A stretch of 64,000 nt of DNA, from the NCBI RefSeq assembly GCF_018831625.1, contig NZ_CP065193.1:62001-126000 (forward strand), given 5' to 3'. The first letter of the stretch is position 1. Each line of letters starts with the position of its first letter. Of the stretch, positions 17,167-53,120 are shown piece after piece. Made by a program: the position numbers and the translations under genes. The stretch is from Spiroplasma endosymbiont of 'Nebria riversi'. Its GTDB lineage: Bacteria > Bacillota_I > Bacilli_A > Mycoplasmatales > Nriv7. The notes under the pieces were generated by a model. It worked only from the letters and a program-made list of their open reading frames with translations. It was not told the DNA's origin and did no database searches.

Positions 17167-18633
17167 TTATTTTTCCTTTCGATGATGACAAGAATTTTCA
17201 AAGTTAATAATTTTTTCAATTCCATAAGCAATATTTAATGCCTTTTGATCAGCAAATGGTAAACAATTAATTGTCATTCCAAATGGCAATTCATTTACTA
17301 AACCAATAGGAATTGTGATTGAAGGCGCACCCGAAAAATTAGCTAATAACAATGCATCATTTGTTAAGTTATTAACATCACTTAACTCTAATTTATGATT
17401 AATAGTTTTCTCAATTGTCGGAGCATCACCACCAGATGCTGACAATAACAGTCCATCATAATCAGTAAAAATTTTTTCAAAGTGATCAACAATTTTTCGT
17501 CGCACCTTTTTTGCTTGCAAAAATAATTCCTGTTGATTTGCTTGTGCCAAAGCATATGCCCCAATAACATATCTTCTTTTAACTGTCTTTCCCAATACAC
17601 TACGACTTTTAATCATAATATTTTGATAAGAATCATCATCTTTACTAATTCGTTTCCCAAAATTAATTGCTGTTAAATTACTTTGCGAACTAGTAGCTTC
17701 CGCAAACGAAATAACCATATAAACTGGTAATAATGACTTTAATAAATCAAGGGGAAAATCAATATCCTCAATAAGTAAACCTTGCTCTTTTAATTTACTA
17801 ATTACCGAAGACCACAAAACTCCCGTTAACGGTCGCAAACCATCATTAACCGACTTAATAGTCGCCAAACGATATTTTTTAATATCAGGACTAAGATTTT
17901 GCAAATAATCTTTTTCCTTTGCTTGCTGACTAGTCAAATCATTCGCATCAAACTTAACTGTCGCATCCATAACAATTGCACAATCACGAACAGTATTAGC
18001 GAGCACACCAACAGTATCTAAAGACGGTGCATAGGGGAATAACCCATAGCGAGAAATAAGTCCATAAGTCGGTTTAATACCAACAATCCCTGTATACGAT
18101 GCTGGTTTTCTAATCGAATCACCCGTATCACTTGCCAAGGCAAACGGAACAACACCCAAAGCAACCAACGCCGCGCTTCCTGATGAACTACCTCCCGTAA
18201 TATGATTTTTATTTCACGGATTATAAACAAAACCCGTAAAACTATCCAAACCAGTACCACCCATTCCTAATTCATCAAGCGTTGCTTTAGCAATATTAAC
18301 AGCTTGATAATCATTAATATCTTTAACTACTTTACTATCAAATGTTGGCACAAAATTTTCTAAAATTTTTGTTCCTCCACTAGTTACAATGTTCTTAGTT
18401 GCTAAATTATCTTTAACGGCATAAGGTATAGCAAATAAATAATTATCTTCAGGAATTGGCATTGATTCCAAACGCTTAGCAATGACCATCGCTTCTTCTT
18501 CTAATAATTTAACAACACCGTTATAATGTTCATATTTTTTTGCCTTAGCAATCGCATCACGAACAATTTTAATCGGTGATGTTTTCTTCTGTAATAATTG
18601 CTGATGCAATAATTCAATTGTCATTTTCATCAT
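17167..18633 (-). CDS. gatA: Aspartyl/glutamyl-tRNA amidotransferase subunit A
   Basis: GatA releases ammonia from glutamine and transfers it to Glu-tRNA(Gln). The 488-residue amidase-signature protein contains the catalytic triad region: Lys74 (AVKDN), the Ser-rich loop GGSSSGSAA near residues 147-154 and the nucleophile segment SDTGDSIRKP (Ser173). Two TGA codons encode Trp. The start overlaps the gatC stop by one base (TAATG-like junction at 18633). MKMT two codons later is an alternative start. Confidence 0.95.
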
Positions 18634-42139: not shown

Positions 42140-43272
42140 TTTAATTTTGTAGAAAACTCTTGATATTTATTGAATATACTTAATTTTAGGTATATTTTTA
42201 ATATGATAGAGGTGGATAATAATTATGGAAAGAATAATTCAAGAACTAGTAAACACTTTAACAGATGATCAATTTTTAGAATTTTATGAAAAAGTCAAAC
42301 AACAAGCAGAATTAATAAAAAAACAAACACGTTAAAATGAAATTAATCAAAAATTTAGAGCACAAGGTATTAAATGCCCTAAATGTGAATCTTACCATTG
42401 CGTTAAAAATGGACATAATTCAGAAGGAAAACAAAAATATTTATGTAAAAATTACCGTGCAAGTTTTGACGCTTTTTGTAATCATTTTATTTATTGAAGT
42501 CATTTAAATTATGAACAATGAAATTTATTGATTCAAATTTCATTGCCGGGGCAATCTAGTAAAACAATTTCTCGTTTTATTAAAACTACATTAAAAACTG
42601 CTTGATATAATCGTCAAAAATTAATGAAATCAAAACAATTAGAAAATACCCAATTAAAATTTAAAAAATTATCTGGTAAAATCCAAATCGATGAAACATT
42701 TATTAAAGAAATTCATAAAGGAAATTTCAAACATAAAACTGATCCACGAAGAATTCGCCTTGACCCATTCGCAACTAATACTAAATGCTGTATTCAAATG
42801 GCAGTTGATAATAATAACAATATTTATGTTAAATCCACAAGCACCAAAAGTTTACAAAAACAATGAGTTATTGAAAATATGAACAAAGAATTAATTAACC
42901 AAAATTCAATTATTACTTCTGATATGCAAAAATTATATTTTTTAGTAGCAAAACAAACAAATTCTACTTTATGTGTAACTAAAACAACAATTAATCCTGA
43001 AGCTAGTTATCGTAACTTAAAATAAAATCAGTAAATTACAATCTAGCCTTAATTCATTATCATGGTTTAGGTTTTACTAATATTCAAAATTATTTAAATC
43101 TCTGAAAATGAAAATACCAACATAAGGGTTTAACTCCAAACCAACAAACAGCGATATTATATTTTAATGTATAAAAAATTAAAGTAAAAATAGTAATTTT
43201 ACATAAAAGCCTTTTAAAATTATCAAGTTGATGATTTTTTTTATTTTATCAAGAGTTTTCGACAAAATTAAA
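42140..43272 (+). mobile_element. IS1595-like element, copy g
   Basis: Both terminal repeats are present. The flanks share AATTAAATT (42131-42139 and 43274-43282), a probable 9-base target duplication. Transposase decayed. Confidence 0.8.
42225..43174 (+). pseudogene. IS1595-like transposase, broken
   Basis: A TAA stands after KKQTR (near 42333), a zinc-ribbon Cys is changed to Tyr (CKNYRA), an extra A near 43020 shifts the frame and about 12 bases are missing in the segment before LIHYHG. Confidence 0.85.
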
Positions 43273-43343: not shown

Positions 43344-44228
43344 TTATTGGGCATATTTCCGAAGCACATCGCCTTCTAATAATACTGGTTTTGCCAAGTA
43401 TCTAATTCTTTCTACTAACCGAATTGATTTCACAATATCAATATTTTTATATTTAGCATTACGACTATAATATTCTTGTAAGTTTCCCATATCATAATTA
43501 GAATTAAAAAATGTTGATAAATTATGTTGCATCCGATAATTTAAAATACTAAATAAAATCTCATCACGAGTTCACTCCGATACGGGTTCACCAGCTAAAT
43601 CATCTAAGAATAGCACATCACAAGTTTGGAGCTTATAAATATCACTAGATAATGAATTAGTTGCTTTCGAAATCGCTTGTTTTAATTGACTCATTAATTG
43701 GGGAACAAAAACAAAACATACTTTATAATCATTCCGAACTAAACTATTAGCTAATAAAATAGAAATATAAGTTTTACCAATACCAGGAGCACCATAAATA
43801 TATAATCCTGTTGTTTGCTCTTTTTTAAGGAAATTAATAAAATATTCTTTTAATTTTATGCGAATAAAATCATTTTCTGGTAAATGAAAATCAGTTTCTA
43901 ATGATAAATTAATCATTGATAAAGGAAAATGACAAATTAAATAATTATTACGAATTTTATCATTAGCTCGCAAATATTGACGATGTAAACAATCTTGCAT
44001 TTCTAAATAAATGCGTTGATTTTCATAAACTAATTCTAACCGATATCCAGGAATTAATTGTTGACATTCATTTCAATTCAAACCATCCAAACATTCAACA
44101 AAATTATTTAAATATTTTTCTAAAATATCATTATTTCGTAATAAATCTTTTTTTAGTAATTGATGTTCAGCAATAAATTTCTGCAAAGCAACAATCTTAT
44201 TTTTTTGAATCCGATGATAAATATCCAT
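43344..44228 (-). CDS. dnaI: Primosomal protein DnaI (helicase loader)
   Basis: 294-residue AAA+ protein that helps load the replicative helicase. Walker A is GAPGIGKT near residue 163, with Walker B-like VLFLDDLAGE. The N-terminal region is helical and basic. It follows dnaB by 21 bases with a GGAAGGAAG site. The dnaB-dnaI pair is the usual Firmicute primosome operon. Confidence 0.88.
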
Positions 44229-44249
44229 AACAATCACTTCCTTCCATAA

Positions 44250-45254
44250 TTATGTTTGACAAAGGGGGTCTTCTTGTAACCATTTTGGAATAATACCCAT
44301 ATTTCATTTAATTTCATAATCAAATTTTGATTTTTTTACAATTTTATTAGATTTTATTTTTTCCTTATTAAAACTTTGAACATATGCAGTTCTTAAATAT
44401 ATCATTGCTTGTTCAACAGTAGTAATCTGCTTTTGTTGTAATGTGCTCGCAATTTTTTCTAAATAAGCCACAACTAAAAGTTTATTATTTTTATATCACA
44501 CATATTCAATTAAACAATTAGTAACTTCTGGTGACAAAGTGTAAGTAACTAATAACTTAGCCAATAACTGTAAATCTTTCGCTTGTAAAGGAAAATTTTG
44601 TAATAATGTTAAATATTTATATGGTGATATTGTTTGCATCTCATAAATTTTTTTTTGTAAAGGATTTTTCATATCTTCATTAGCAACTTCTAATGATTGT
44701 TTATTAGTTTCTGACAAATGATTGGTTTGGAAAATAAAATCAGCACTAGAAGCATCTGCTTTTACTATTGATAAAGAAAATACTTCATTAAAGCATTTCG
44801 TAATTTTTTTATAACTTGATAGATCTTCTTGATATTGCATAAATAAAAACTTTGTTCGTTCATAATCATTAAGAGAAAGATTATCAATTAGCAATTGATT
44901 AAATTGTTGATGATTAAAAAAGTCTTGTGGTGCCATCGGAGCAAATAATTCATAGTAATAAGTAACACCAATATTAGTATTATTACGATAAACATCAAAT
45001 AAATTTATTGCTTCTAACCGATTTCTCGCAACTTCAATTTCCAGTAATGATAATTGTAATAAATTTTGCAAGCGTAAATGCGAATTATCTAAATTTAAAA
45101 CTTTCATTGATAATTGTTCATTTAATAAAGCAAAATATAGCGAAACAGCATTAACACCAATAATTGGTTGATATAAATGTTGAACTATCTTTTGCGTTTC
45201 ACTACAAATATGAGAATTAATAATTATTTGAAATTTTTCTTCTGATTGTAACAT
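44250..45254 (-). CDS. dnaB: Replication initiation/membrane attachment protein DnaB
   Basis: 334 residues. This is the Gram-positive DnaB/DnaD-type helicase-loading protein, not the helicase. The N-terminal winged-helix part resembles family members (LYQPIIGVNAVSLYFALLNEQ), and a DnaD-like helical domain lies in the C-terminal half (SPYKYLTLLQNFPLQAKDLQLLAKLLVTY, cited in pieces: SPYKYLTLLQ, LLAKLLVTY). ATG at 45252-45254 is chosen over an upstream GTG because the GTG lies inside the AGGTGGAG ribosome site. Two DnaA boxes lie upstream. Confidence 0.8.
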
Positions 45255-45343
45255 TTTTATCTCCACCTTATTGTCTTATTTATTCTATGACAGAATAATA
45301 GCGATGTAAATAATAAACAATAAAAAAATAATTACCCACTAAG

Positions 45344-45405
45344 TTATCCACAACTTAGTCCTAAAAATATCTTATAAATAAGATGCTTTAATTTACTTAT
45401 CCACA
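45344..45405 (+). promoter_or_regulatory. Two perfect DnaA boxes upstream of dnaB-dnaI
   Basis: TTATCCACA occurs at 45344-45352 and again at 45397-45405, same orientation, 53 bases apart, in the gap between mutM and dnaB. Both equal the TTATNCACA consensus. They may let DnaA regulate the primosome operon or act as a minor DnaA-binding cluster. Confidence 0.7.
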
Positions 45406-45416
45406 TAATTCACAAC

Positions 45417-46247
45417 TTATAATTTATTCTGACATTGACAGCAAAAATATGTACCACGACCATTAAGCTTAATTTTTTCAATTATTGAAGAACAAACATA
45501 ACACGCTAATGCTTCTCTTGTATGCACTTTCAATAATTGCTGATATGTCCCTTTAACACCAACATTAGAAGTATAACTAGCAATTGTTGTTCCTTTTAAG
45601 TTAATCGCTTGTGTTAAAATTTGTTTCGCATTATTTAAAATTGCTTTTAAATGCTCGGTTTGTAATTTATTACATCTAGTAACAGGATGAATTTTACTAG
45701 CAAATAATACCTCATCAACATAAATATTTCCTAAACCACTAATAATACTTTGATCTAACAGCATTGTTTTAATAGCTCGGTTCTTATTTTTAAATTTCTT
45801 TTGTAAATAATCAACAGTAGCCCTTGATTCAAAAGGTTCTGGGCCTACTTTGATTAATGGTGCTAATTGTTCATATTCATCCTTTTTTTGCAAATGAAAA
45901 GAACCAAATCTTCTTGTATCATGATATCTTAATTCACAACCATTACTTAATTCTAAAACTAATAAAACATGTTTTCATTCAATATCATCATTAAGATTTT
46001 GATAATAATATTTACCTTCCATTCGTAAATGACTAATTAACACAAAATCTTCTAATTCAAAAATTAAATGTTTTGCTTTTCTTTTTAAATCAAGAATTTT
46101 TTGACCAACAATCAATTTTCGAAATGATACTAAGTCGGGTTGTTTAATTACTGAACTTCAATAAATTCTAATTCCTGTAATAACTTGATTGCAAACAAAA
46201 GGTTGTAAACTGGCACGAACAGTTTCTACTTCTGGTAATTCTGGCAT
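45417..46247 (-). CDS. mutM: Formamidopyrimidine-DNA glycosylase
   Basis: Excises 8-oxoguanine and formamidopyrimidines. 276 residues: catalytic MPELPEVET at the start (Pro2, Glu3), SGLGNIYVDE, and a C-terminal zinc finger with CYVC ... FCCQC. Length is normal. It starts 15 bases after the polA stop after a GGAG site, forming a polA-mutM repair operon. Confidence 0.95.
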
Positions 46248-46261
46248 TAACTTAATCTCCT

Positions 46262-48877
46262 TTATACTTCATATCAATTATTTCCTGTATTAATATCAAC
46301 CGTTAAGGGCACCTGCAATTTTGTTGCTAAATTCATTGCTGAATTAACAATTTTTTTAACAATTTCTAATTCATTTTCATATACTTCAACAATCAACTCA
46401 TCATGAACTTGAGCAACAAGATACGATTTTAAATTATTTTGTTCTAATTGCTGATCAATTTTAATTAGAGCTAATTTAATTATATCAGCTGCTGTTCCTT
46501 GAATCGGAGCATTAATTGCTACGCGTTCTGCTACTTGTTTAGCTACTCAATTCCGATCATTAATTGTTGGAATGTATCGGATCCGATTGAATAAAGTTTT
46601 AACAAATTTATGTTCTTGACAAAATTTAATTGTATTATCCATATAATGACGAATTTCAGGAAAAACAGCAAAATATTGTTCAATAAATTTTTTTGCTTCG
46701 CTAATAGAAATCATTAATTGTTTACTTAAACCAAAATCAGAAATACCATATACAATCCCAAAATTAACAGTTTTCGCAACTCTTCGTTGCTGTTCACTAA
46801 CTTCAGCTTGATTAATAGAAAATATTTTACTAGCAGTTAATGAATGAATATCTTCATTATTTTTAAATGCTTTAATTAATTCTTTAACATTAGCCATATG
46901 TGCTAAAACTTTTAATTCAATTTGCGAGTAATCACTAGATAACACTACTTGTGTGCCAGAATCATTAGGAACAAACACCTTACGAACTAATTTTTGATGA
47001 ACATCATGAATACTAATATTTTGCATATTAGGTTCTTGTGAAGATAACCTTCCTGTTGTTGTATTAGTTTGATTATAAATCGTATGCACCTTACCATCTG
47101 CAAAAATATATTTTTCTAAACCTTTTAAATAAGTTGAATAAGTTTTTTGATATTTACGATATTCCAAAATTTTATCAATAATTGGATGTAATTGTTGCAT
47201 TTGTAATTGGATTAATACTTCTTGTGCCGTACTACCTTTTTGTAAATCAGGTAATTTTAACACATCAAATAATAATTCTTTTAATTGTTTAGGAGAATTA
47301 GGATTAACATCTTGTTGCGCTAAACTATTAATTTCTTCATTTAATTGGGTGACAATTTTTAATACTTCTTTTGTTAACTGTTCTAATTGTTTAATATTAA
47401 CACGAATACCGTGAAACTCCATTTTTGCCAATACAAAAGCACAAGGAAACTCAATATTTTTATACAACTCTAATTGTTGTTGTTGTTCTAATTTCTTACT
47501 AAGAAGCGGTTTTAAATGTAAAATTCATCAAGCTTTTCTAGTAATAAAACCAGCAACTTCTTGTAATTCTCGTACAACTTTTTTTTGATTTTTACCATAA
47601 AACATTTCATCATTCATAAAAGTTTGTTCAGCAAAATAATTAATAACATTATCAATCGTTACTTTCATATTCGCATTTAAAATATAACCTGCTAATTGTA
47701 AATCAAAAGCAATACCTTTAACTTCAATATGATGTCATTTACAACCATTAATAACTTTCTTCAAATCAAAAACATCTTTTAGACATTTTTCATCTTTTAA
47801 AAATGCTAAAAATAATTCATCAGTACTAGCAACAAGATAATCTAAATAAAATGTTCCTTTATCGTTAACAACACCAAAGCCAATAATGTCTGAAGTATAA
47901 TAATTATCACCACTCATTTCAACAAATAACGCATTTTCAACACAATTATAATTAGCATCTCACTTACTTAAAATTTTACCTTGATCTTTATTATTATCTT
48001 GTGAAGGATTATTTGTCTCTAAACGATTAACTAATGACTTCAAATTATATTTTAAATAAAATTCTTTTAAGCGATTTAAATCTCTATTAATTGTTAACGA
48101 AGATAAATCCTTAGGAAAAGGAACATCATATCTTAAAGATGCCATTTCTTTACATAATAAGCCGATATTAGCATTATTCACAATTTTTTCTTTAACCGCT
48201 GTTTTTAATTCCTCTTGGTGCGTAATAATATTTTCTAATGTTCCAAATTGATGTAACAATGATAAAGCAGTTTTCTCGCCAATGCCTTTAATACCTGGAA
48301 GATTATCACTGGCATCACCTTTTAATCCTTTTAAATCAGGTATTTGGTTTGGAGTTATATCTCATCTTGCTTTTAATGAATCAACATTAATAATTTCTAC
48401 TTGTGATAATCCCTGCTTCGGTTTAACAATTACCGTATTAGCAGATAATAACTGTTCTAAATCACCATCCGATGACAAAATTTCAATTTCTCAATTTAAA
48501 TCAATTGCCTTTTTATTAATCGTAGCAATAATATCATCAGCTTCAAAATCAGGATGTTCATATCATTGAATTCCATAAGCATCTAAAAACTCACGAACTA
48601 ATGGTAATTGCTGTAATAATTCTTGTGGGGTTTTAACGCGTTTTTCTTTATAACTAGGTAATATTCCATAACGAAAATTTTTAGGTCCCTCATCAAAAGC
48701 AACCAAAACTAAATCATAATTTTGTTTTAAAATCTTTTCTAACATTGTAATAAAACCTAACAAAGCATTAGTTGGTGTCCCATTATTTGCTCGTAAAGTT
48801 ATGGAATTACTATATGCGGTTGCGTAATATGCCCGAAAAACTAAACCATTACCATCAACTAATAATATTTTCTTCAT
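46262..48877 (-). CDS. polA: DNA polymerase I
   Basis: 871 residues for Okazaki fragment processing and gap filling. The 5' nuclease domain covers about residues 1-290 (LLVDGNGLVFRAYY, DFEADDIIAT, LKGDASDNLPGIKGIG). A degenerate 3'-5' exonuclease-like domain follows in which the usual DxE motif is replaced (FVEMSGDNYY), so proofreading is probably absent as in B. subtilis. The polymerase domain has motifs A (SSDYSQIELKVLAH), B (RRVAKTVNFGIVYG) and C (VHDE). The frame requires many TGA Trp codons. Start after AGGTG. Confidence 0.96.
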
Positions 48878-51497: not shown

Positions 51498-53120
51498 GGT
51501 CGCGTTTAGTTTTCTTAGGTATTGTTTTGAAAAAGTAAAACAATCAGCTAATTATATTATTTAATTACTAAACTAACCCCGCCTTTCTTGTTGTTGTCAT
51601 TTTTATTCATTACCATTTTATCATATTATTGAATTTTTACACAATAAAAATTATTAATTATTATTAAATTTTCACTAATATTTTTACTTACTTAAATCTA
51701 TTATATTTATTTGTTACAGCATTACCTTTATAATTAATTCAACTATCATCATTTTTATTATTATATTTATTTCATAATGAATTTTTATATATTTCTTTTC
51801 TGATTTCTATTTCTGAATTAATATTTTCATTAATGTAATGTAATACATTTAATTTGTTTAAATTTGCCATTCTTAAATGTAATAAGTTATTTAAATTCTT
51901 ATGATTATATATTTTCGCCCCATATCCTAATTGTTGTTTTACCAAATGTGACACATCACTTTCAATGCTACAACCAATATTTCATTCTAAATTTTGATTA
52001 TGAATACCTTGCTTATTATTACTGAAATAATTACTAGCCTTTCTTAAATTTGTTTTAATATCTTTATTTAATTCATTTTTCGCAACATTACGAATGTTTT
52101 TGATTAATTCTTGAGGATTTCCATCCTTATATAATTTAATTCAAATATTTATTGCTACTTTGCGATTTTCAAAAATAATATTAAATGCGGTTTGTTTTAA
52201 TTTTTTAATAGCGTGATAACCATCTAAAATATATCTAACATTACCGAAACTATTGGCAATTTCTCTAATTCAAGTAACCCCGTCGCCACAAACAATTATT
52301 TTGTCATAATTAACATTCACATAATGTTTTTGTAATTCTCTAATTAATAAATCACGATAATCCGTCGTATTTATTCGTTTACCAACTTTTAACATTAGAA
52401 AATGACCTCGTTTATTTTCTAATTCTCTACGAGCATTTTTATAATTTTTTTCTTTATTTCCGGTATGAAAAGTAACCAAACGAATTCTCTGGTCTTGTTT
52501 AACTTTCTGATCTAATGTCGCTAAAAATGTCTCATCTAGTTAAATATATAAATCCTTATTTTTAACATCAATTCTAGTTTTAGTTTCTTTTTCTGCTAGT
52601 TGAAAATATTCAGCAATATCGTATTTATTTAAAATATTTGAAATACTACCTTTTGAAATATAACAATGATTTAGAGCATCTAAAACATCACGATAGCGTT
52701 TACCATCACCCAAAAGACTTAAAACTTTAAATTGAACATCAAAATAAATGCGTTGTTTAGGTAATAAACCAATTTCTTTATCTAATAAACATACATATTC
52801 AAATTTACCTGATTTTTGATTTCAATATTTATATTGGCGTCGTTTAAAAGTAACATCACCAAAAATTGTAATAATTGTTCTTGATGCAAAATGAACTACT
52901 TTATAACCTTGTTTTAAGCGATAATGATATTTATATAAGTATTCATCTAATTTTTCATATTCATTAGCTAATTGTTCACATTTGTTGGTGTACATATTTT
53001 TATGGGTTATAAATAAACTGAATCAATGCTTGTTTTCTAAGGTTTTTACATTATTATTAATTTCTAACATAAAAAATAACCTTTCTTGGTAGAGTAATTT
53101 TAACAAAGTTAAATTTAGTT
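51498..53120 (-). mobile_element. ISLre2 element C
   Basis: Minus-strand copy of element A, with the same 3' end (GGTCGCGTTTAG when read on the plus strand) and the same upstream sequence leading into a divergent propeller gene. The left limit is approximate. Confidence 0.65.
51688..53070 (-). pseudogene. ISLre2 transposase with nonsense codon
   Basis: 461 codons like element A. The Gln of QLDETF is TAA here (near 52540), so translation stops immediately before the first catalytic Asp. Codon 359 is open in this copy, unlike element A. Confidence 0.8.

Follow-up and report, generated by a model that had tools for sequence, protein, structure and literature searches.

The gap between mutM and dnaB in the Spiroplasma endosymbiont of 'Nebria riversi' carries two copies of the nonamer TTATCCACA, which have the look of genuine DnaA boxes associated with the dnaB-dnaI operon. 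By comparison across related genomes the pair is real, conserved, and probably functional. We consider it likely that the gap is a DnaA-binding operator tuning dnaB-dnaI transcription. The two copies lie on the same (plus) strand with a start-to-start distance of 53 bp, in a gap of 162 bp (45255-45416) between the mutM end at 45417 and the dnaB ATG at 45254. Coordinates refer to the window, the whole 64,000-nucleotide stretch of DNA that was analyzed (Table 1). This bears out the first-pass annotation, which had reported two exact nonamers 53 bases apart in one short intergenic gap; no further exact TTATCCACA occurs in the 64-kb window. Read toward dnaB, the proximal box is TGTGGATAA. The distal box lies 11 bp from the mutM stop codon and is abutted by a degenerate third box, which reads TAATCCACA (one mismatch) in genome G001.

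Table 1. Features in and around the mutM-dnaB gap, in window coordinates.
Feature	Position	Strand	Remark
dnaI helicase loader	43344..44237	-	Starts 12 bp after dnaB
dnaB (DnaB_2 helicase-loading/remodelling protein)	44250..45254	-	334 aa, translation table 4
Candidate dnaB promoter TTTACA-17-TAGAAT	45282..45310	-	Downstream of both boxes
Perfect 8-bp inverted repeat around proximal box	45338..45359	.	U-rich stretch starts about 8 nt later, - strand
Proximal DnaA box TTATCCACA	45344..45352	+	98 bp upstream of dnaB ATG
Distal DnaA box TTATCCACA	45397..45405	+	151 bp upstream of dnaB ATG
Degenerate third box TAATTCACA	45406..45414	+	Abuts distal box
mutM/fpg	45417..46277	-	Upstream neighbor; ORF overlaps end of polA

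The genes polA and mutM, the gap, dnaB, and dnaI follow one another in that order on the minus strand, and dnaB and dnaI are probably in one operon. The upstream neighbor was identified by Pfam matches to Fapy_DNA_glyco/H2TH and dnaB by a match to DnaB_2, while the DnaI_N match of dnaI falls just under its cut-off; the NCBIfam DnaB and DnaI equivalogs gave E values of 2e-31 and 4e-57, both under the curated cut-offs. The dnaB-dnaI neighborhood is disturbed by mobile elements. Transposase-like ORFs lie between dnaI and the glycolytic genes gap/pgk and upstream of polA, and we take the stretches at 42528-43025 and 51688-52479 to be such ORFs.

How unusual the pair is depends on the scale at which it is counted. 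Within the window, two copies of TTATCCACA were observed against 0.77 expected, and 17 of 100 shuffles held at least two copies, so rarity inside the window was dropped as proof of a signal. A genome-wide count, which the first-pass annotation had proposed as a check, found the exact nonamer 13 times across 1.44 Mb (2 for the reversed, uncomplemented control pattern), so the nonamer is not frequent. With so few copies, two in one gap are not expected by chance, simple arithmetic giving about 0.006 chance pairs within 53 bp. The earlier statement that two boxes in one gap are unlikely by chance holds; two copies per 64-kb window are within chance. Six of the 13 genomic copies are intergenic: two before dnaB, two flanking dnaA, and two near transposase-like ORFs, of which one presumably has a transposase-like ORF on one side and a probable rplJ on the other, while the second, as we read the region, is flanked by transposase-like ORFs.

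The nonamer in the dnaB gap has the same letters as the oriC boxes in most lineages. In the window genome, exact TTATCCACA stands before dnaB and flanks dnaA on either side. Boxes at oriC were compared in 31 genomes, many of whose contigs begin at dnaA, showing the downstream side only. Wherever a box was seen, family f1 and genus f6g13 carry TTATCCACA at both dnaB and oriC, while TTTTCCACA stands at both places in all four genomes examined of f6g6 and in G051 (f6g16); family f5 uses both forms. The exception is f6g25: of four genomes examined, three combine TTATCCACA at dnaB with TTTTCCACA downstream of dnaA. The protein that would read these boxes is also recognizable. DnaA of the window genome matches PF08299 above cut-off, aligns over nearly its full length with the solved Bacillus subtilis DnaA, and in that alignment keeps the recognition residues, namely, the minor-groove arginine and the DH-S/T-T motif, which contact the DnaA box in Escherichia coli.

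Two genomes of the same genus as the window showed additional sequences of oriC type. Contig C1 of G004 has three DnaA C-terminal domain matches (17486-17692, 2039625-2039834, and 2042666-2042872), whose open frames measure 120, 313, and 312 aa. Its boxes at 2038457-2045626 form three oriC-type inverted pairs, all in some 7 kb at the end of the contig; it looks as if dnaA-oriC had been duplicated in tandem or an oriC element had integrated. On contig C1 of G003, the stretch 1302238-1304305, some 10-11 kb ahead of the main oriC boxes, holds an extra oriC-type box triplet and a DnaA C-terminal domain split across two frames.

If the boxes matter, they should recur in other spiroplasmas, as the first-pass annotation had pointed out, and they do, in all five genomes of the genus and in 60 of 73 genomes across three families. 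Within the genus, the gap can be aligned in all five genomes, and both boxes and their 53-bp spacing are invariant. When the 85 exact boxes of these five genomes were clustered by flanking sequence, the dnaB pair was the only intergenic, non-oriC site present in every genome; the box downstream of dnaA is present in four of five. Three coding boxes are likewise kept in all five, so conservation within the genus says little by itself.

The order was searched first using the dnaB protein and next using a 13-row alignment, which gave matches in 167 and 215 of 248 genomes, and upstream regions were read in 115 of them: 59 of the 60 f6 genomes with a match (G194, whose listed match begins mid-protein, was left out), 9/9 of f5, 5/5 of f1, and 42 hand-chosen from the other matching genomes listed. 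Matches inside upstream ORFs were removed, and the claim is limited to the 73 genomes of f1, f5, and f6. The motif TT(A/T)TCCACA (gene strand TGTGGA(A/T)AA, counted as TGTGGATAA or TGTGGAAAA) is present in the dnaB gap of 5/5 f1, 9/9 f5, and 46/59 f6 genomes. Dinucleotide shuffles of the same 73 gaps gave a mean of 0.35 and a maximum of 3 (100 shuffles), and the best of 300 sampled nonamer permutations reached 7 gaps, against 60 for the box. An unsupervised ranking of every 9-mer placed the two box variants at the top, and control intervals 450-870 bp upstream held a box in 2/115 and 0/115 genomes. The exact TTATCCACA form occurs in 41 of the 73 gaps, and 20 hold two or more boxes; the opposite orientation was seen once, as an extra inverted box. 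An exact box was not found in 13 of the 73 gaps, 12 of which hold a one-mismatch copy; copies with at most one mismatch are thus present in 72/73 gaps, a count that carries little weight by itself. At the named loci, nine of nine have a box variant and eight of nine the exact TTATCCACA, the carriers including Spiroplasma ixodetis SHM, S. platyhelix PALS-1, S. poulsonii MSRO, and S. phoeniceum P40.

Beyond these three families the picture changes. No box was found upstream of dnaB in f8 (0/18) or in six other families (0/9), and the box is thus dispensable in other mollicutes. In f3, an apparently intergenic TTTTCCACA was found in 4 of 15 genomes (f3g3 and f3g32), in which the upstream gene calls are uncertain. 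A headline count of 71/115 was dropped, since the matches in f3g29 belong to the 3'-terminal part of the upstream ORF, which we take to be coaE. At the f3g29 loci L151, L153, and L174, about 134-159 bp upstream of dnaB, a V-D/E-N peptide spells a DnaA box, and a coding mimic of this kind can mislead box counts.

In many genomes the distal box directly borders the mutM end, so that it could have belonged to mutM rather than to dnaB. Clade f6g25, recognized as the S. phoeniceum and S. poulsonii group by matching upstream sequences, separates the two genes, with mutM located elsewhere, away from dnaB. In this clade, the box is present at 14/14 dnaB genes and at 0/13 mutM 3' flanks (13 of the 14 genomes, G197 not included). 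Upstream of S. phoeniceum dnaB there are presumably folC-like and membrane-protein ORFs. Judged by these counts, the box travels with dnaB, not with mutM.

The layout of the gap offers some clues to function. Paired boxes are mostly separated by 51-53 or 61-63 bp, close to five or six turns of the helix, with one exception at 80 bp and one at 11 bp; a Rayleigh test at 10.5 bp gave a p of about 0.005, on about 10 lineage-level, non-independent distances. The extended gene-strand consensus is (A/T)TGTGGA(T/A)AA(C/G)T. Both hexamers of the candidate dnaB promoter are identical in 5/5 genus genomes, and the promoter scan gave no clear excess over shuffles for this candidate.

We propose that DnaA would bind the two same-orientation, high-affinity boxes upstream of the operon promoter, which lie on roughly the same helix face (53 bp, about five turns), and that bound DnaA would change dnaB-dnaI transcription, so that the supply of helicase loader would follow free or ATP-bound DnaA. 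We infer both the binding of DnaA in the cell and its effect on dnaB-dnaI transcription. Activation or tuning stands at about an even chance and repression appears somewhat less probable, the remainder falling to no strong transcriptional effect; the slight lean toward activation or tuning comes from the position of the boxes, upstream of the candidate -35 and clear of the core promoter. Such an arrangement suggests that DnaA adjusts the supply of its own partners via sites before the helicase-loading genes. It is doubtful, although conceivable, that the site goes further and acts as a feedback switch: DnaA on phased boxes could recruit DnaB (with DnaD, if present) to dnaB's own promoter, so that the cell gauges free helicase loader there, which would make the gap, in these small-genome bacteria, the only conserved place of DnaA control besides oriC.

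The main rival is titration, in which DnaA is bound here but has no direct role in dnaB-dnaI transcription. It has a precedent in B. subtilis, in which six DnaA-box clusters (DBC) outside oriC are described whose joint loss leads to early initiation (passages of PMC5295017 and PMC13220808); like our boxes, these lie outside oriC, but the role given to them in parts of PMC5295017 and PMC11019786 is to capture DnaA and thereby restrain initiation, unlike the one proposed here. A titrating site in the dnaB gap would resemble these clusters or the E. coli locus datA, and in several genomes dnaB lies 100-260 kb from dnaA. Sites of the DBC/datA type have, by definition, many boxes and a position set by oriC and not by a gene. 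The dnaB gap, however, holds only 1-3 boxes per site, their orientation and distance to the dnaB start are fixed, the site follows dnaB when the neighbors change, and the distance to dnaA is not constant in the genus (105-784 kb). We therefore regard titration as unlikely.

That the site serves another protein, or is an RNA element of the dnaB leader, and resembles a DnaA box by accident is quite improbable. The idea draws on the inverted repeat of this genus, which encloses the proximal box and is followed about 8 nt downstream by a U-rich stretch, forming a weak terminator-like hairpin. Its hairpin (-8 kcal/mol) is not exceptional, as 14 of 200 shuffles were as good; a terminator scan found none, and Rfam gave no match in the dnaB leader. 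The repeat was seen only in this genus and not in the sequences of other genera, and is treated as incidental because those genera are without it. Moreover, the nonamer has the letters of the oriC boxes and for the most part changes along with them, and the flanks drift while the box stays, although the search pattern itself fixes all but one position. Coincidence, or a side effect of coding sequence or of the mutM 3' end, at which the position of the distal box beside the mutM stop and the coding matches of f3g29 might hint, has a very faint prospect and is largely refuted for f1, f5, and f6 by the shuffle counts, the separated mutM 3' flanks, and the control intervals given above.

An operator of DnaA at dnaB-dnaI would fit a known kind of regulation. 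In B. subtilis, the DnaA-regulated promoters include the autoregulated dnaA-dnaN, sda, ywlC, ywcI-sacT, yydA, and the trmE operon (sections of PMC4447404 and PMC8203912), and DnaA both activates and represses, at different promoters (a section of PMC4447404). As at the dnaB gap, multiple TTATNCACA boxes stand in the promoter region there, with DnaA acting as a transcription factor (PMC4447404 and PMC8203912, in part), whereas the target here is the dnaB-dnaI helicase-loader operon, and the two boxes compare with 4-12 sites in the eight strongest B. subtilis regions (data excerpted from PMC4447404). The boxes share their nonamer variants with the Mollicutes oriC, described in an excerpt of PMC10884336 as having boxes in two gaps flanking dnaA, but they precede dnaB, about 490 kb from dnaA in the window genome. 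Predicted DnaA boxes also precede a replication gene named dnaB in Caulobacter crescentus (a passage of PMC8203912); that gene encodes the replicative helicase, unrelated to the DnaB_2 helicase-loading protein.

The first-pass annotation had held that DnaA control of dnaB-dnaI was described in Bacillus and so might be conserved in a minimal genome. The first part could not be confirmed, as the direct-target lists in the available portions of PMC8203912 and PMC4447404 (including Table 1) omit dnaB-dnaI. The second finds no support in the other orders of the class, in which none of 30 loci had a box within 1300 bp upstream of dnaB; these were the best 30 of 141 matching genomes, with no Bacillus locus among them, and the simple NrdR motif was likewise absent upstream of dnaB in all 30. 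Because of the absence of the box from these loci (none from Bacillus), the arrangement seems to have been gained in this lineage, not kept from a Bacillus-like ancestor, and on present evidence the site appears restricted to the part of the Mollicutes comprising Spiroplasma and its nearest kin. No earlier description of the dnaB-gap site was found in the open-licence literature, and dnaB-dnaI would seem to be a new, lineage-conserved target of DnaA.

Mollicutes have few transcription factors, which makes a conserved operator in front of a replication operon noteworthy. Relatives such as Mesoplasma florum permit a direct test. If DnaA controls dnaB-dnaI, helicase loading and initiation would be linked via gene expression in these small-genome bacteria.
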